Shown here: positions 2,654-11,045 of the stretch, piece by piece
Numbering within the stretch: position 1 is the stretch's first letter
Layout of the letters: each line of letters begins with the position of its first letter
Origin: Bacteroidaceae bacterium
GTDB lineage: Bacteria > Bacteroidota > Bacteroidia > Bacteroidales > Bacteroidaceae
NCBI GenBank assembly: GCA_017557475.1
Contig: JAFYYO010000031.1
Location: forward strand, 1-11,045
Direction of reading: 5' to 3'
Length of the DNA: 11,045 nt
The notes under the pieces: generated by a model
The model's input: only the letters and a program-made list of their open reading frames with translations
What the model was told of the DNA's origin: nothing
Databases searched by the model: none
Made by a program: the position numbers and the translations under genes

Positions 2654-3604
2654 ATGAATACCAAGATAAATCTCCAGCAACTGGCCAAGATATTGGCTCA
2701 GAAGAAGAACATTCCGCAGAAAGATGCCGAGACATTTTTGAAAGAATTCTTCGATTCCATCGTTCAAAACGTCACTTCCGACAAGCTCGTCAAGATAAAA
2801 GGCTTGGGTACTTTCAAACTGATTGAGGTGCTTGATCGCGAGAGTGTGAATGTCAATACCGGTGAACGCTTTGTGATTCCCGGTCACTCGAAGCTCTCGT
2901 TTACCCCCGAGACTGCCCTCAAGGACTTGATTAACAAGCCCTTTGCTGACTTCCAAACAACTGTTATCAACGAAGGAACAAGCATCGAAGAGATGGAGCG
3001 CGTTCCTCAGCAAGAGGAAGAGGCAGAAACGGAAGAGGAGATAGAACAGGAAGTTTCCGCTCAACTCGTTGAACCTGAGGTTGAGGAGAAGCCTATAGTG
3101 GCAGAAACTCCTGTTCAAAAGCTTGTTGATGAGCCTGTTGAAGTGCATGAACCTGAGGCCAAAGCGGAAGAAACGCCTGCTCCAAAGCCTGATTATGACG
3201 AGGAGAAACCAAAGGGTTCCTTCGGAAAGATTCTTGCTTGGATACTCGGAATCCTGCTACTTTGCGTGCTTGTTTTCTTTGCTTATAAGTATTTGTCGAG
3301 CATGCCTTCTGCCCAAGTTGAGGATGAAAGCGAGTTAATAGAGGAAGTTCCAGCAGACTCGCTAGCTGAGACTCCAGCTCCAGAGGTGCAATATGCGCAA
3401 GTTCCAGGCGGAAAATATAAGATTGTGGGCACCAAGAAGACCTATGTCATGAAGCGTGGCGACTTCCTGACCAGGATTGCGATACAGGAGTATGGCGACA
3501 AAGATGTTGCCCAATATATCATCGTCCACAACAACTTCCCTGACCCCGACAATGTCCCAGTCGATGCCGAAATTAAACTTCCTGAACTGGAACCTGTAGA
3601 ATAA
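2654..3604 (+). CDS. HU-domain / single-TM / LysM-like fusion protein
   Basis: The product has 316 residues and three parts. Residues 1-105 form an HU-like domain of the longer Bacteroidetes type, with IKGLGTFKL (48-56), VNTGERFVIPGHSKLSFTP (67-85) and KPFADF (95-100). Residues 112-186 are a glutamate- and proline-rich linker. Residues 191-211 are one strongly hydrophobic helix, with K184, K186 and K192 before it and an acidic stretch after it (223-231). Residues 263-312 resemble LysM: TYVMKRGDFLTRIA starts the fold and PVDAEIKLPEL ends it. The charge pattern predicts the HU domain in the cytoplasm and LysM in the periplasm. LysM binds peptidoglycan glycan chains, so the protein could link the nucleoid to the cell wall; that role is inferred. 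It is the last gene of the block, 12 nt after the small HU gene. The domain layout is clear, the function is not known. Confidence 0.88.
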   Translation: MNTKINLQQLAKILAQKKNIPQKDAETFLKEFFDSIVQNVTSDKLVKIKGLGTFKLIEVLDRESVNVNTGERFVIPGHSKLSFTPETALKDLINKPFADFQTTVINEGTSIEEMERVPQQEEEAETEEEIEQEVSAQLVEPEVEEKPIVAETPVQKLVDEPVEVHEPEAKAEETPAPKPDYDEEKPKGSFGKILAWILGILLLCVLVFFAYKYLSSMPSAQVEDESELIEEVPADSLAETPAPEVQYAQVPGGKYKIVGTKKTYVMKRGDFLTRIAIQEYGDKDVAQYIIVHNNFPDPDNVPVDAEIKLPELEPVE

Positions 3605-3613
3605 AATGTAAGC

Positions 3614-3673
3614 AAACTGCCCGTTTCGGTTTCTTTCTGTCATTTTGAAAGTTGACGCAAAACGGAGCAGTTT
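3614..3673 (+). repeat. Long-stem inverted repeat just after the HU-LysM stop
   Basis: AAACTGC (3614-3620) pairs with GCAGTTT (3667-3673), and CGTTT (3622-3626) pairs with AAACG (3660-3664), with a 1x2 internal loop between the two helices. The apical region can add CTTTC against GAAAG. It starts 9 bases after the stop codon. It is followed by only four T residues, so it is at best a weak terminator; it may instead protect or help process the 3' end of the upstream mRNA. Pairing is seen by eye only. Confidence 0.4.
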
Positions 3674-3694
3674 TGATAAGAAAACGCCTCGAAA

Positions 3695-3848
3695 GCCGAC
3701 TTGACAGGTTAAATTTGCCGACATAACAGGGAGCGTTGGCAAACATAACAGGGTGTGTTTGCCAACTAGCCACGCCTAGTTGGGCAATTATCCACGTATA
3801 ATTCGCGATTAAATCGTGTTGAAAAAGCCCGTTTTCCACTCGAAAATG
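3695..3848. repeat. Array of seven degenerate 22-bp palindromic units
   Basis: Seven consecutive units start at 3695, 3717, 3739, 3761, 3783, 3805 and 3827, exactly 22 bp apart. All begin with G and six begin GC. At the same offset each has a five-base core: ACAGG in units 1-3, CCACG in units 4-5, TCGTG in unit 6, CCACT in unit 7. Around the core the flanks are inverted repeats: GTTGGCAAAC/GTTTGCCAAC (3735-3744 with 3757-3766), CCAACTAG/CTAGTTGG (3762-3769 with 3776-3783), AATTAT/ATAATT (3786-3791 with 3798-3803), and GTTTTC/GAAAAT in the terminator. Arm sequences differ between units but stay complementary. Units 1 and 6 are the most degraded. Two further candidate units with AAACG at the core position may start at 3651 and 3673. 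I do not recognise it as a named repeat family. Confidence 0.75.
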
Positions 3849-3857
3849 GGCTTTTTT
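3822..3857 (+). terminator. Intrinsic terminator after the ftsY-HU block
   Basis: A 15-bp stem (3822-3836 with 3842-3856) carries one G-T wobble and a five-base loop CACTC. The stem contains the GC-rich block GCCC/GGGC and is followed by a run of six T residues (3852-3857). The A-rich start of the stem means it could also work on the minus strand, but no minus-strand gene is present. It lies 217 bases after the last stop of the left block, so the array ahead of it would be transcribed. Its loop sits exactly at the core position of the last 22-bp unit. Confidence 0.85.
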
Positions 3858-3992
3858 CTTGCCTAAAACTGGTGATGAAAAATGTAAGTCCCGCATTTCC
3901 AGCTTGTTATGAGAATGCTTAAAAATGGCGTTCTTTTTGCCCTCGACGTGAGTTGAGCTATTTTGTGCGATTCTCAGCGTGTTTGCAAAATA

Positions 3993-4031
3993 CAGGATGT
4001 AAGTAAAAACAGGCTTTTATCTTACAATCTG
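3993..4031. promoter_or_regulatory. Imperfect dyad upstream of the bat operon promoter
   Basis: TGTAAGTAAAA (3998-4008) pairs with TTTTATCTTACA (4015-4026) with a single bulged base, and the outer bases CAG/CTG extend the symmetry to 3993-4031. No T run follows, so it is not a normal terminator. It ends about 80 bases upstream of the predicted moxR promoter, a possible operator position. The dyad is visible in the sequence; a regulatory role is a guess. Confidence 0.4.
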
Positions 4032-4110
4032 TCAAATATGTTGTCTTTGCACCATTTTGCCCGTTTTTAACAAAGTTAAACATCGTTATAACTCTTTTTA
4101 TATTTTCATG

Positions 4111-4142
4111 TTTGGCAGATAATGCAGAAAAGTGTAATTTTG
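4111..4142 (+). promoter_or_regulatory. Bacteroidetes-type promoter for the bat operon
   Basis: TTTG at 4111-4114 and TAATTTTG at 4135-4142 match the -33 (TTTG) and -7 (TAnnTTTG) boxes exactly, with a 20-nt spacer inside the usual 19-21 range. A start of transcription near 4149 would leave an AT-rich leader of about 24 nt before the moxR ATG at 4173. This is the best promoter match in the window and marks the start of a new operon after the terminator at 3857. Confidence 0.8.
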
Positions 4143-4172
4143 TGCCCGAATTTATAACAAACTAAACACAAT

Positions 4173-5168
4173 ATGGCAGAAAACATCGACATTCGCGAAC
4201 TCAATGAACGCATTGAGAGACAAAGTGGATTCGTCACGAACCTCGTGACAGGAATGAATCAAGTTATCGTAGGACAAAAGCATCTGATAGAGTCGCTCCT
4301 CATCGGTTTGCTCAGCGACGGACACATCCTGCTGGAAGGTGTGCCGGGTCTGGCTAAGACTATGGCTATCAAGACGCTGGCCCAACTGGTGGACTCCAAG
4401 TTCAGCCGCATTCAGTTTACGCCTGACCTGCTGCCTGCCGACGTCATCGGCACGATGATTTATAGTCAGAAGGACGAGAAGTTCTTGGTGGAGCAAGGTC
4501 CCGTCTTCGCTAACTTCGTGTTGGCCGACGAGATAAACCGTGCTCCAGCAAAGGTGCAGAGTGCTCTTCTGGAGGCGATGCAGGAACGTCAAGTCACTAT
4601 CGGTAAGAATACTTTCCAGCTTCCGAAGCCTTTCCTCGTGCTTGCCACTCAGAACCCAATCGAGCAGGAAGGCACTTATCCTCTGCCTGAAGCTCAGGTG
4701 GACCGTTTCATGCTGAAGGTGGTCATCGACTATCCGAAGCTCGACGAGGAGAAGCTTATAATACGCCAGCAAATCAAGGGCGACCAGCCTGATGTGAAGC
4801 CAGTTATGGGTACGGAGGAAATCATGAAGGCTCGCGAAATCGTCCGTCAAGTGTATCTCGATGAGAAGATTGAGCAGTACATCGCCGACATCGTGTTCTG
4901 TACGCGCTATCCAGAGAAATATGGATTGAAGGAAATCAAGGACTACATCGAGTTTGGAGGCTCGCCTCGTGCCAGCATCAATCTCGCTTTGGCAGCTCGC
5001 GCCTTTGCCTTCATCAAGCGTCGCGGCTACGTGATTCCAGAAGATGTGCGTAGTGTGGCTCACGATGTGCTTCGTCATCGTATCGGTCTTACCTACGAGG
5101 CTGAGGCCAACAACGTCGTTAGCGAGGAAATCATCAGCAAGATTGTGAATAAAGTTGAAGTGCCCTAA
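4173..5168 (+). CDS. MoxR-family AAA+ ATPase of the bat operon
   Basis: MoxR ATPases are AAA+ proteins thought to act as chaperones for the activation or metal loading of partner VWA proteins. The 331-residue product has Walker A GVPGLAKT (56-63), Walker B FVLADE (115-120) followed by INRAPAKVQSALLEAM, sensor 1 ATQNP (158-162) with the MoxR hallmark IEQEGTYPLPEAQVDRF, and sensor 2 GSPRAS (263-268) at the start of the C-terminal lid. Length and motif order are typical for the family. No signal peptide or membrane segment is present, so it is cytoplasmic. It opens the operon and ends 5 nt before the DUF58 gene, the standard MoxR-DUF58-VWA neighbourhood. The family is certain; the client protein is inferred from the context. 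Confidence 0.95.
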   Translation: MAENIDIRELNERIERQSGFVTNLVTGMNQVIVGQKHLIESLLIGLLSDGHILLEGVPGLAKTMAIKTLAQLVDSKFSRIQFTPDLLPADVIGTMIYSQKDEKFLVEQGPVFANFVLADEINRAPAKVQSALLEAMQERQVTIGKNTFQLPKPFLVLATQNPIEQEGTYPLPEAQVDRFMLKVVIDYPKLDEEKLIIRQQIKGDQPDVKPVMGTEEIMKAREIVRQVYLDEKIEQYIADIVFCTRYPEKYGLKEIKDYIEFGGSPRASINLALAARAFAFIKRRGYVIPEDVRSVAHDVLRHRIGLTYEAEANNVVSEEIISKIVNKVEVP

Positions 5169-8168: not shown

Positions 8169-9872
8169 ATGTTTCGCTTTGCAAGTCCACAATATCTGTA
8201 TTTGTTGTTAGTGCTTTTGGCGCTGGCTGCGATACATTATTACATTATATATAAGAAGAAGCAACAGGTTAAACGCTTTGGTGACCCTGAGTTGACCAGA
8301 CAACTTTTCCTCGGCGTTTCGCGTTGGAGGCCTGAAGTAAAGTTTTGGTTAGCGATGTTGGCTTTGGCGTCATTCGTCGTTGCTTTGGCTCGTCCTCAGT
8401 TCGGCACTCGCCTCGATACCCGCGAACGAATGGGCATAGAGGCAATCATAGCTCTTGATGTCAGCAACTCTATGTTGGCTGAAGACGTGAAGCCCAACCG
8501 ATTGGAAAAGGCGAAGATGATGGTCAGCAATATGGTTGATGGCATGAAGGACGATAAGATTGGCCTGATTGTCTTTGCTGGTCAGGCTTTTGTGCAATTG
8601 CCCATCACCAGCGATTACGTGAGTGCCAAGATGTTCCTCGAGACCATTTCGCCTTCTATGATTAATGTTCAAGGCACAGATGTTGCGGAAGCCATCACGC
8701 TTTCAATGCGGAGCTTCACTCAGCAGGAAGACGTTTCCAGAGCTATCTTCGTGATAACTGATGGCGAAGACAATGAGGCTCGAGGTGTTGAGGCTGCAAA
8801 ACAAGCTGCTGCTAAAGGCATTCGCGTCTATGTTTTGGGCATCGGCAATCCTGGCGGAGCACCCATTCCCATCCCTGGAACCGGTCAGTACATCATCGAT
8901 GACGAGGGCAACACAGTCGTTTCGAAGTTGAGCGAAGAGATGTGTCGCGAGATTGCGACTGCCGGAAACGGTTCTTATATCTATGTCGATAACAGCAGTT
9001 CGGCTCAGAAGAAGCTTTCGGAACAGCTCGACCGACTCGCGAAAGCCAAGATGGAGAGCCAGATTTACAGCGAATACGACGAGCAGTTCCAGGGCTTTGT
9101 CCTCATCGGAATCCTGCTTTTGCTCATCGATGTCCTGCTTCTTGAAAGGGAAAGCAAGTCCACTTGGCTCAGTAACCTCTTCCGCAGAGGACGCTCTGTT
9201 TCAGCAGTTTGCCTGCTGCTCTTCAGCTTGACTGCTTTCTCGCAGACCGACAGAGACTATATTCGTAGGGGCAATCGCTTGATGCGAGACAGCGTTTACG
9301 ATAAGGCTCAGGTCGAGTACCAGAAGGCTATCGAGAAAGACAACACGAATCCCATCTCGCATTACAACCTCGGAAACGCTCTCCTCTATCAGAATAAGGC
9401 CGAAGACGCCATGAAGGAGTACGAGACGGCGGCTCGATTGGAGAAAGACAAAGGTCGTCTCGCTCAGATTTATCACAATATGGGCGTCATCCTTCAGAGT
9501 GCCAAGCAGTTCGACAAAGCAGTAGCTTGCTATCGGAACTCCCTCAGAAACGACCCAACTAACGATGAGACGAGGTACAACTATGCCTTGAGTCTCTTCC
9601 AATTGAAGAAGAATCAAGGAGGTCAAGACAATCAGGATCAGCAGAAGGACGACAAGGGTCAGGATGAGAAGAAAGAGCAGGAACAGCAACAACAGAAACA
9701 AGAACAAGATAAGAAAGACGAGCAACAACAGCAACCTCAGCCAGAGCAGATGAGTCGCGAGAATGCCGAGCAGATGCTGAATGCCGCGATGCAGGACGAA
9801 AAAGCTACGCAGGAAAAGATTCAGAAAGCTCAGCAAAAGCGTCAACAGAAACAGTTGCAGAAACAATGGTAA
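8169..9872 (+). CDS. batB: BatB-BatC fusion: membrane VWA plus TPR protein
   Basis: One 567-residue frame covers what are usually two genes. The BatB part has membrane helices at 8-26, 58-74 and 310-325 and a VWA domain with a complete MIDAS site: DVSNS (D97, S99, S101), T170 in QGTD, D198 in ITDGEDN. A basic loop (FRRGR, 338-342) then leads into a hydrophobic stretch (343-358) ending AFS-Q, which looks like the signal peptide of a separate BatC. After it come three TPR motifs (about 364-393, 396-426, 433-464) and a long Q/K/E-rich tail (481-567). The charge pattern puts both the VWA and TPR parts in the periplasm. TPRs bind partner proteins, so the fusion fixes BatB and BatC at 1:1. The frame is open throughout, with no internal stop. 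Signal peptidase could still cut after S358 and release the TPR half. Confidence 0.92.
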   Translation: MFRFASPQYLYLLLVLLALAAIHYYIIYKKKQQVKRFGDPELTRQLFLGVSRWRPEVKFWLAMLALASFVVALARPQFGTRLDTRERMGIEAIIALDVSNSMLAEDVKPNRLEKAKMMVSNMVDGMKDDKIGLIVFAGQAFVQLPITSDYVSAKMFLETISPSMINVQGTDVAEAITLSMRSFTQQEDVSRAIFVITDGEDNEARGVEAAKQAAAKGIRVYVLGIGNPGGAPIPIPGTGQYIIDDEGNTVVSKLSEEMCREIATAGNGSYIYVDNSSSAQKKLSEQLDRLAKAKMESQIYSEYDEQFQGFVLIGILLLLIDVLLLERESKSTWLSNLFRRGRSVSAVCLLLFSLTAFSQTDRDYIRRGNRLMRDSVYDKAQVEYQKAIEKDNTNPISHYNLGNALLYQNKAEDAMKEYETAARLEKDKGRLAQIYHNMGVILQSAKQFDKAVACYRNSLRNDPTNDETRYNYALSLFQLKKNQGGQDNQDQQKDDKGQDEKKEQEQQQQKQEQDKKDEQQQQPQPEQMSRENAEQMLNAAMQDEKATQEKIQKAQQKRQQKQLQKQW

Positions 9873-9884
9873 AACACAAAGTTT

Positions 9885-9994
9885 ATCAACTTGACAAGTT
9901 GTCTCACATTTTCCCACACGTGAGACAAGCTTTTCCCACACGTGGGAAAAGGTCTTCCCACCGGTGGGAAAAGTGATTTAGCCACGTTAAGTTG
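9885..9994. repeat. Second 22-bp palindrome array, between batBC and batD
   Basis: Five units start at 9885, 9907, 9929, 9951 and 9973. Their five-base cores lie exactly 22 bp apart: ACAAG (9894), ACACG (9916), ACACG (9938), ACCGG (9960), CCACG (9982). Palindromes include CAACTTG-A-CAAGTTG (9887-9901), TTGTCTCAC/GTGAGACAA (9899-9907 with 9920-9928), CTTTTCCCAC/GTGGGAAAAG (9930-9939 with 9942-9951), and the loopless TTCCCACCGGTGGGAA (9955-9970). TTTTCCCACACGTG occurs twice, 22 bp apart (9909 and 9931). The array fills most of the 138-base gap between two genes of one operon. No T run follows any stem, so it is not a standard terminator. The period and core match the array at 3695-3848, but the arms differ. 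Confidence 0.8.
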
Positions 9995-10010
9995 AAAGAG
10001 ACACCATAAG

Positions 10011-11045
10011 ATGAAAAGACTTTACACGATATTCGTTCTATTCCTTCTTGCGTTAAGTCCCGTCTTTTCGCAAGTTTCGCTAAAGGTTCAGGCACCCTCT
10101 CAAGCCGAAGTAGGGCAGAGAATCCGCATCAGTTATGTGGCCAACACGCAGGACATCGAAGACTTCCAGGTCGGAGACTTCGAGGGTTTCAACGTCCTTT
10201 ACGGCCCCAGCACAAGTCGTTCGAGCAGTTTTTCAATGACGAATGGCCGCACAACTCAGAGCAGTACGGTAACCTTTACTTATACCGTCGTGCCCACTTC
10301 TGAGGGAACACTCAAGGTGCCCGCAGCCACAATCAAGGTCGATGGAAAAGCCGTCAAGAGCGGTTCTCCCAGTATGGAAGTGTTGCCAGCCAGTCAGCAA
10401 CAAAGTCAGCAGCCTCAGAACCAACAACAAGGCACCAATCCTCGCCAGCAACGTCAGCAACAAAGTGCTGGTGGGTCTGGTCAAATCTCGGGGAATGAGC
10501 TCTATATGACCGTTACAGCCAACCGCAAAAAGATTTATGAGCAGGAGGCTGTGATGCTTACTTACAAGCTCTATACGCTGGTGAACATCCAACAAATCTC
10601 AGGCGAAATGCCTCAGATAGACGGTTGTCACGTCCAAGAACTCGATAGAGCCGCTCAAATGTCGCTCAAGTACGAGCGCGTCAACGGCAGGAACTACGGC
10701 ACAGCCGTCTGGAAGCAATACGTCATCTTCCCGCAGAAGACGGGCAAAATCACGATTCCAAGCATCACTTTCGACACGCAAGTCGAGGTTCAGAACCACT
10801 CGATGGACCCCTTCGACATCTTCTTCGGAGGCGGAAGTCTCTCGCAGATGGTGCGCAAACAAATCTCTACGCCAACTGTTGAGATTGAGGTGATGCCCCT
10901 TCCAACCCCGAAGCCCGACAACTTCTCAGGTGCCGTCGGCAAGTTCTCTGTGTCCGCTTCTCTCACTCCTGACCAGGTGAATGCGAACGATGCGGCAACC
11001 CTTCGACTCGTCGTAAGCGGTCAGGGCAACATGAAACTCATGAAG
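10011..11045 (+). CDS. batD: BatD, N-terminal part (runs off the window)
   Basis: The frame runs from the ATG at 10011 to the last base, 345 complete codons with no stop, so the gene continues beyond the window; BatD proteins are usually near 600 residues. A signal peptide (1-20, SPVFS before Q21) leads to beta-rich domains typical of the BatD family: VGQRIRISY (35-43), YTVVPTSEGTLKVP (91-104), YGTAVWKQYVIFPQKTGKITIP (split here as YGTAVWKQYVIF at 229-240 and PQKTGKITIP at 241-250), and GAVGKFSV (308-315). A glutamine-rich linker (128-153) separates the first domain from the second. The protein is expected to be anchored by a C-terminal membrane helix that is not in view. It follows the BatB-BatC fusion after 138 bases, the longest gap in the operon, filled by the palindrome array. 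I see no promoter motif there, so cotranscription is likely. Confidence 0.92.
   Translation, partial: MKRLYTIFVLFLLALSPVFSQVSLKVQAPSQAEVGQRIRISYVANTQDIEDFQVGDFEGFNVLYGPSTSRSSSFSMTNGRTTQSSTVTFTYTVVPTSEGTLKVPAATIKVDGKAVKSGSPSMEVLPASQQQSQQPQNQQQGTNPRQQRQQQSAGGSGQISGNELYMTVTANRKKIYEQEAVMLTYKLYTLVNIQQISGEMPQIDGCHVQELDRAAQMSLKYERVNGRNYGTAVWKQYVIFPQKTGKITIPSITFDTQVEVQNHSMDPFDIFFGGGSLSQMVRKQISTPTVEIEVMPLPTPKPDNFSGAVGKFSVSASLTPDQVNANDAATLRLVVSGQGNMKLMK

Follow-up and report, generated by a model that had tools for sequence, protein, structure and literature searches.

Arrays of near-palindromic sites in a 22-bp register near gene 3' ends in a Bacteroidaceae bacterium and its relatives: candidate phased sites for a DNA-binding protein

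Tandem operator and iteron arrays consist of symmetric sites about two helical turns apart, to which proteins bind cooperatively on one face of the DNA. REP, BIME and REPIN elements, which go with RAYT transposases, are high-copy extragenic palindromes by gene 3' ends, with convergent and co-directional gaps favoured (accessible part of PMC3733652). The known system nearest to the arrays described here is the 23-nt BrickBuilt minisatellite of Porphyromonas gingivalis. The accessible part of its description (PMC4596501) reports intergenic 23-nt head-to-tail repeats with predicted stem-loops at 19 dispersed loci, with 1 to 22.8 copies per locus and with a leader and a tail that have IS5-like terminal repeats. 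The BrickBuilt sequences of P. gingivalis and P. gulae form a single family, and 22-nt repeats are also mentioned for strain W83 (same source and part). The literature searched, including the accessible parts of PMC5771137, PMC3733652, PMC4060949 and PMC4596501 and with most subscription papers outside its scope, contains no description of arrays phased at 22 bp, either for Prevotella or for Bacteroidales at large.

We analysed 11,045 nt of DNA from a Bacteroidaceae bacterium; "the window" below means this whole stretch. It contains two intergenic arrays, listed here with their neighbouring genes (G010 is the nearest relative found).

2654 to 3604, plus strand: gene for an HU-domain protein (Pfam PF00216), upstream of array 1
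3692 to 3809, plus strand: array 1 proper, five G010-type units 22 bp apart, with cores at 3702-3711, 3724-3733, 3746-3755, 3768-3777 and 3790-3799 (weight matrix, lag-22 test)
3812 to 3821, plus strand: unit 6, in register, doubtful (G010 matrix score -19.2)
3822 to 3856, plus strand: unit 7, a strong hairpin, AAAAAGCCCGTTTTC-loop-GAAAATGGGCTTTTT (inverted repeat I3; matrix score -25.1)
4173 to 5168, plus strand: gene for a MoxR-type AAA ATPase (Pfam PF07726), downstream of array 1
8169 to 9872, plus strand: gene for a protein with VWA and TPR domains (Pfam), upstream of array 2
9887 to 9996, plus strand: array 2, in the VWA/TPR-batD gap, with centre hexamers that begin, by eye, at 9893, 9915, 9937, 9959 and 9981 (tandem repeat scan, lag test, alignment)
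10011 to 11045, plus strand: gene for BatD (Pfam PF13584), running off the end of the window, downstream of array 2

We take the gene at 8169-9872 to be BatB/BatC-like, a name that goes beyond the Pfam matches. A genome scan with the MoxR protein led to the uncultured Prevotellaceae RUG606 (G001; locus L001), and a search of the relatives of G001 led to G010, which is 89% identical to window DNA over 7.0 kb and 87% over 3.6 kb. G010 and the other relatives are presumably congeners of the window organism. Like BrickBuilt, the arrays are intergenic direct repeats in Bacteroidales, with a period of 22 in G010, G001 and G014 and of 22-24 in G003. They differ from it in that most have three cores, in that conservation at the ends, in G010, covers no more than about 26 bp, and in that unit sequences vary between relatives in the same gap.

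We found that the register of array 1 is exact. A preliminary description of this DNA had reported seven units at 22 bp, and the core 10-mers do begin at 3702, 3724, 3746, 3768, 3790, 3812 and 3834; the core that it gave, (A/C)CA(C/G)G, is present by eye in five of the seven. Identity at lag 22 was compared with that in 2000 dinucleotide shuffles and with that at other lags from 10 to 40. Array 1 (3695-3848) had 73 of 132 positions identical at lag 22 (mean of shuffles 32.6, sd 4.9), its whole spacer (3605-4172) 185 of 546 (143.3, sd 10.5), and the spacer of array 2 (9873-10010) 53 of 116 (29.0, sd 4.8). None of the 2000 shuffles reached 73, 185 or 53, respectively, and 22 was the top lag within 10-40 in each case. 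Tandem Repeats Finder reported array 2 (22 x 3) and did not report array 1.

Array 1 belongs to a family that is dispersed in G010. A weight matrix trained on G010 units, with the window excluded, gave its five highest plus-strand scores in the window to the sites at 3746, 3702, 3724, 3768 and 3790 (25.0, 11.4, 10.0, 6.9 and -1.0). The best plus-strand site elsewhere in the window scored -4.9, and the only minus-strand sites above -4.9 were again those at 3746, 3724 and 3702. Judged by its sequence, array 1 is a five-unit member of the G010 family, because the matrix ranks exactly those five sites best. The seven units had been described as one object; that holds for units 1-5, but units 6 and 7 were rejected by the matrix (-19.2 and -25.1). 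Unit 7 is the loop of the strong, long hairpin at 3822-3856, which has A- and T-runs within its stem. This hairpin is probably an ordinary terminator and may be in register by chance; a pattern scan did not list it, the T-run being inside the stem.

Further inverted repeats lie between array 1 and moxR: a long one at 3910-3976, TGAGAATGCTTAAAAATGGC / GCTATTTTGTGCGATTCTCA, with 27 nt between its arms (I4), and an imperfect hairpin at 3992-4032, ACAGGATGTAAGTAAAAA / TTTTATCTTACAATCTGT (I2).

The sampled 636 kb of G010 contained 68 arrays (70 at lag 22 in noncoding DNA, merged). Three good cores were present in 44 of the 68 elements, two in 11, four in 7, and one or none in 6. The unit consensus, from 185 units, is TTTGCAAACG TAACACGTTA AGTTTGCCAA. 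In the 62 elements with at least two good cores, conservation reaches about 26 bp outside the outer cores on both sides and then ends; a standard three-core element is about 107 bp. Its ends are roughly inverted (AAAAC / GTTTT); the elements of G073, by eye, have A/T-rich inverted ends.

Spacing between cores was rigid. The centre AACACGTT or its complement occurred 151 times in the 636 kb of G010, 143 times in noncoding DNA. All 80 pairs of neighbouring AACACGTT-type cores no more than 150 bp apart were at 22 bp (74 pairs) or 44 bp (6 pairs), in agreement with the preliminary guess that the cores are helically phased. When cores could carry one mismatch, the same-strand noncoding pairs no more than 40 bp apart numbered 100, and every one was at 22 bp. 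The 134 linkers from detected G010 arrays carried 451 substitutions relative to the consensus. The phasing was also fixed in G103 (36 pairs at 22 bp and 3 at 44, 39 of 39; stretches that were pieces of four contigs) and in G073 (23 and 1, 24 of 24); in G235, 7 of 9 pairs were at 22 bp, one at 21 and one at 43, the stretches of G073 and G235 having been picked around known matches. Fixed phasing of this kind, together with two-fold symmetric sites that change symmetrically (inner positions 1-3 in G010, see below), is a likeness to operator and iteron arrays. The arrays differ from those in their scatter across the 3' ends of many genes (68 arrays in 636 kb of G010), as against a single origin or promoter, and in having a partner protein that is putative.

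The main rival to protein-binding sites is a minisatellite similar to BrickBuilt, selfish or neutral; that is, a palindromic repeat spread by slippage and recombination, as BrickBuilt may be, with a period that is inherited and unselected. We consider this rather unlikely, and the elements of G010 argue against it. They are discrete, with exactly three good cores in 44 of 68 and conservation that ends about 26 bp outside the block of cores, unlike an expanding satellite, and they have no off-register core pairs despite their diverged linkers.

The arms of array 1 had been described as changing together so that pairing is kept, and this was partly borne out. Arms paired with their own partners at 33 of 56 positions compared to 22.9 with permuted partners (p = 0.001), but the axis used (first at 3707, through the cores) was the best of 44 tried, and the p value corrected for 44 axes is about 0.044. 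Pairing in the successive units was 4, 3, 6, 7, 6, 3 and 4 of 8; that is, three units pair well and the other four do not. For array 2 the best axis gave p = 0.05, uncorrected.

We measured symmetric change with the axis fixed on CACG, in units with an exact CACG, against both species-wide and within-array shuffles. In G010, arm positions 1, 2 and 3 showed compensation (p = 0.001, <0.001 and 0.006 species-wide; 0.004, 0.001 and 0.15 within arrays), and positions 4-6 did not (p > 0.8). G103 showed compensation at position 2 only (p = 0.008 species-wide, 0.09 within arrays), and G073 is silent on symmetric change, its inner arm positions being nearly invariant. In G001, positions 1-5 and 7 exceeded the species-wide shuffles (p from 0.001 to 0.023) and none exceeded the within-array shuffles. 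Because only the species-wide shuffles were exceeded, the arms of G001 appear to vary between arrays and not within them. G014 was weak, with positions 1 and 5 above species-wide shuffles (0.023 and 0.020). Thus symmetric change between arrays extends past position 3 in G001 and G014. The seven CACG units of the window exceeded the species-wide shuffles at positions 2 (p = 0.003) and 4 (0.042) and the within-array shuffles at none. Three compensating bases on each side of a 4-nt centre would suit a dimer operator in size and would be too short for a useful hairpin.

Covariation outside the centre was rare. Across the linker axis, the linker columns of G010 did not covary (four pairs, p from 0.75 to 1.0), and across the core axis one of six positions did, the nearly invariant position 4 (192 of 214 compared to 186.3, p = 0.0005). 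Linker columns covaried in none of 24 tests in G103 and G073 and in 2 of 12 in G235 (11 linkers) at p <= 0.05. Loss of pairing in orthologues, which the preliminary description had named as a refutation, did occur for the outer arms.

The preliminary description had left a choice between a folded RNA and two-fold symmetric protein sites. The rigid spacing, the variable linkers and the symmetric change at the centre favour protein sites. A chain of hairpins in the RNA between cistrons or in 3' untranslated regions, with an effect on decay or processing, seems very unlikely to us. RNAalifold predicted no pairs over 42 gap-free G010 elements (the subset of the 68 that has complete flanks and exactly three consecutive good cores). 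The arms of G010, G103 and G073 lack covariation beyond the inner three bases, with the one exception in G010, and the linkers of G103 pair at column 3 in 2 of 45. No Rfam family matched at its gathering score in the window or in seven stretches of G010. The hairpin chain would account for the stable predicted folds of window stretches 3600-3870 (z = -4.25) and 9870-10010 (z = -7.66), for the compensation in array 1, and for the position of array 2 between two genes of one apparent operon, but palindromic sites in duplex DNA fold well as RNA anyway.

Arms could also be matched without selection, by correction of quasi-palindromes through template switching. This could account for the wholesale symmetric change of arms in window arrays 1 and 2, but the outer arms of G010, G103 and G073 show no such correction and the fixed 22-bp spacing is left unexplained, and we think it a very unlikely explanation.

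We found that arrays in G010 and G001 are concentrated where genes end. Among gene pairs 100-600 bp apart in G010, an array lay between 25 of 32 convergent pairs, 26 of 68 co-directional pairs and 3 of 27 divergent pairs (p = 2.5e-7 for convergent compared to divergent); these and the following context counts are approximate, with genes called as longest ORFs and ORFs shorter than 600 bp that covered an array removed. G001 was similar (8 of 13, 14 of 41 and 1 of 16, respectively; p = 0.003). Taken alone, none of three other relatives was significant: G014 had arrays in 5 of 8, 10 of 36 and 4 of 10 gaps, G103 in 5 of 10, 8 of 29 and 1 of 10, and G073, in the reverse direction, in 0 of 7, 6 of 33 and 2 of 7. 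Pooled, G001, G014, G103 and G073 had arrays in 18 of 38 convergent, 38 of 139 co-directional and 8 of 43 divergent gaps (p = 0.008). In co-directional gaps of G010, 16 arrays had the orientation of the genes and 12 the opposite one, in the orientation and core-count set, which leaves out the 6 of 68 elements with fewer than two good cores. If the arrays were a minisatellite, their avoidance of promoters could be explained by purifying selection alone.

We also considered arrays as stand-ins for intrinsic terminators. Terminator-like hairpins were about as frequent at gene ends with an array as at those without one, both in convergent gaps (14 of 46 and 7 of 18) and in co-directional gaps (10 of 25 and 15 of 46), by a custom rule for T-run and fold with crude gene calls in gaps of 100-900 bp. 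We rejected this candidate on these frequencies, and a role in termination is therefore without direct support.

The location of the arrays, extragenic and at gene 3' ends, agrees with the earlier suggestion of a mobile REP-like element, but other features of REPs do not. A REP/BIME-type element moved by a RAYT transposase would explain why near-palindromic copies are numerous outside genes (the genome of G010 has 213 core-pair matches) and the bias to 3' ends and convergent gaps that is described for REPs in the accessible part of PMC3733652. The location is REP-like in G010, with 68 arrays in 636 kb and a convergent bias; the bias was not seen in G073. In contrast to REPs, the arrays run head to tail at a fixed 22-bp register, with 64 of the 74 G010 pairs at 22 bp in the same orientation and 10 in the opposite one, and by eye the G010 consensus lacks GTAG and CGTC. 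A Y1 transposase (PF01797, E <= 0.001) was found in one of nine genomes, G015, and in 5 of 14 control genomes, the assemblies being possibly incomplete. A scan for target duplications in G010 gave no clear one (best offset 6 of 62 compared to 1.4 expected, the best of many offsets). We rejected membership of the REP/RAYT systems on the tetranucleotide, the transposase and the head-to-head or tail-to-tail pairing, and movement by a RAYT seems to us very unlikely. The sole Y1 transposase match among the nine genomes lies at G015:C4:17736-18074 (L244), in a relative with few sampled 22-bp arrays.

As the preliminary description had anticipated, 22-bp arrays were present in noncoding DNA of relatives (G010, G001, G014 and others). 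Exact 6-mers recurred at lag 22 in noncoding DNA of the sampled stretches 780 times in G010 (55.7 kb noncoding; median of lags 10-60, 18), 540 times in G001 (median 10), 295 times in G014 (6) and 126 times in G015 (14), where lags 18 (90) and 21 (119) were also high. G003 had 118, 277 and 156 at lags 22, 23 and 24, compared to a median of 13, and Escherichia coli K-12 (9.3 kb noncoding) had 1 at lag 22, compared to 2. An array finder run on noncoding DNA at lags 15-40 gave 70 arrays at lag 22 in G010 (0-5 at other lags), 29 in G001 (0-9) and 26 in G014 (0 or 1). In G015 it gave 6 at lag 22 compared to 7 at lag 21; thus 22 is not outstanding there. Among 80 Bacteroidota loci, mostly Bacteroidales, period 22 was the commonest, with 19 arrays of unrelated sequence in 13 loci; periods 14, 21, 23 and 24 had 5 arrays each, and the rest 0-2.

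Pairs of the AACACGTT centre at 22 bp had at least one match in 12 of 201 family genomes: 239 in G103, 213 in G010, 59 in G235, 29 in G073, 5 in G053 and 1-3 in the other seven. The outer letters around this centre differ among G010, G103 and G235. A reversed pattern, used as a control, matched in 5 of 201 genomes (G164 11, G073 7, G177 3, G194 1 and G210 1) and had no match in G010, G103, G235 or G053. Virus-borne spread was considered and rejected (11 viral contigs, one match each).

Several very different unit types coexist in G001 (CCCTATAGGG, TACATGTA and CACGTG). TTGNCAA-type linkers and CACG/CGTG, motifs picked post hoc, show enrichment over other noncoding DNA in the arrays of three genomes (G010, G001 and G014), and the TTGNCAA-type linker motif is present in none of the arrays of G015; we give such shared sub-motifs little weight. 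G001 (L103-L122 and L001) also has a second noncoding period, of 14 bp, with a count of 215 at lag 14 and 128 at lag 21, and with lags 28, 35 and 42 raised. G003 (the genome of L007; L088-L102) has 22-, 23- and 24-bp arrays that differ in sequence, for example 24-bp units TTGGGCCAGCC..GGCCAA in L100.

The same gap often holds a 22-bp array in different species with different letters. We compared arrays to the orthologous gap in other species in 52 pairs, which come from sampled stretches only, are partly reciprocal and are dominated by two gaps. A 22-bp array was present as the best period in 31 pairs and was not in 21. The 52 pairs make up 10 gap groups, and in 8 of the 10 two or more species have 22-bp arrays. 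In the 31 shared pairs, the unit consensus sequences agreed at no more than 12 of 22 positions in 16 pairs (12 of 22 is the 95th percentile for random 22-mer pairs), at 13 in 4, and at 17 to 22 in 11. Units were unrelated or nearly unrelated in five of the eight groups, namely at batD (window compared to the rest), at HU-moxR and in three others.

Array 2 is an example. An alignment of its gap, which follows the VWA/TPR gene and precedes batD, puts the ACACGT-type centres of the window, G010, G001, G026 and G014 into shared columns; exactly 22 columns are missing from G001, a clean loss of one unit. The arms are TTTTCCC/GGGAAAA in the window and of AACTTAA- or AACTTC-type in the other species, and array 2 has no match to the G010 weight matrix. 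From this alignment, the arms of array 2 have apparently been replaced in the lineage of the window, and the same gap holds arrays in four relatives. G015 has no array there in the alignment.

The gap that holds array 1 is different. Measured from one alignable flank to the other, the window has 474 bp between HU and moxR, and G010 has 34 bp with no array (L153, 8338-8372), although G010 has 68 arrays elsewhere in its sampled 636 kb. Because of this difference in length between flanks that are 87-89% identical, array 1 and its neighbourhood appear to have been recently gained or lost. No clear 22-bp array was found in the HU-moxR gap of G026, G022 or G015. Other repeats occur upstream of moxR: L024 (8806-9328) has two distinct 23-bp arrays back to back in one gap, and L002 and L004 have tandem repeats with CCGGAAACCCCGGAGATC.. 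and GATGCCAAGCAGACGTCCTCC.. units no more than 800 bp upstream, probably inside the gene for the HU-domain protein.

These comparisons bear on the minisatellite from both sides. Slippage and recombination would explain why G001 has cleanly lost exactly one 22-bp unit between the VWA/TPR gene and batD, why unit number differs between G001 and G014 at one gap, why presence and absence differ in 21 of 52 orthologous-gap pairs, and why 13 of the 80 Bacteroidota loci have period-22 arrays that are unrelated in sequence. In contrast, a merely inherited period does not account for the same period in arrays of unrelated sequence, in the same place in 5 of the 10 gap groups.

We propose that the arrays are phased sites in duplex DNA for a putative dimeric protein that would act as a boundary at gene 3' ends, and we put the probability of this reading at about 0.5. 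The arrays have a common register, symmetric sites, rigid spacing with variable linkers, dispersed copies and, in G010 and G001, a bias to 3' ends and convergent gaps. Each site would be near-palindromic (NNN-C-AC-G-NNN), about 10 bp long with an asymmetric AC centre, and locked at 22 bp to the next. Since 22 bp is about two turns of the helix, successive sites would lie on the same side of the DNA. The putative dimeric protein would bind the sites cooperatively, so that 3-5 dimers form a short filament or plug. Such plugs at gene 3' ends, chiefly between convergent genes, may be boundaries, either as a roadblock to read-through from both sides or as a topological anchor.

Several observations speak against phased protein-binding sites. 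The context bias is reversed in G073, and G014 and G103 alone show no significant bias. Of the orthologous-gap pairs, 21 of 52 lack a 22-bp array in the other species. Arm compensation is longer in window array 1, symmetric change goes beyond position 3 in G001 and G014, and 22 bp is not outstanding in G015. The observation that phased sites explain least well is the coexistence of unrelated units in G001, since one protein would not bind all of them.

It is possible, and we put it forward tentatively, that the arrays are a Bacteroidales-wide class of gene boundary in which the 22-bp register and often the position are kept. The letters would turn over fast, in step in the two half-sites, along with a partner protein that itself evolves rapidly. 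With no more confidence than that, we suggest that such a class may be a bacterial counterpart of satellite or recombination-site systems, in which protein and DNA chase each other.

If phased protein binding is correct, two or more of the sampled relatives would bear a phased protein-binding array between most of their convergent genes (G010 in 25 of 32 gaps, G001 in 8 of 13), and this abundant gut phylum may have a nucleoid or transcription-boundary factor that is yet to be found. Given the sharp G010 consensus and the rigid register, the phased-site reading is directly testable. If it is true, the turnover of sequence at fixed positions would offer a bacterial case of co-evolution of protein and DNA.
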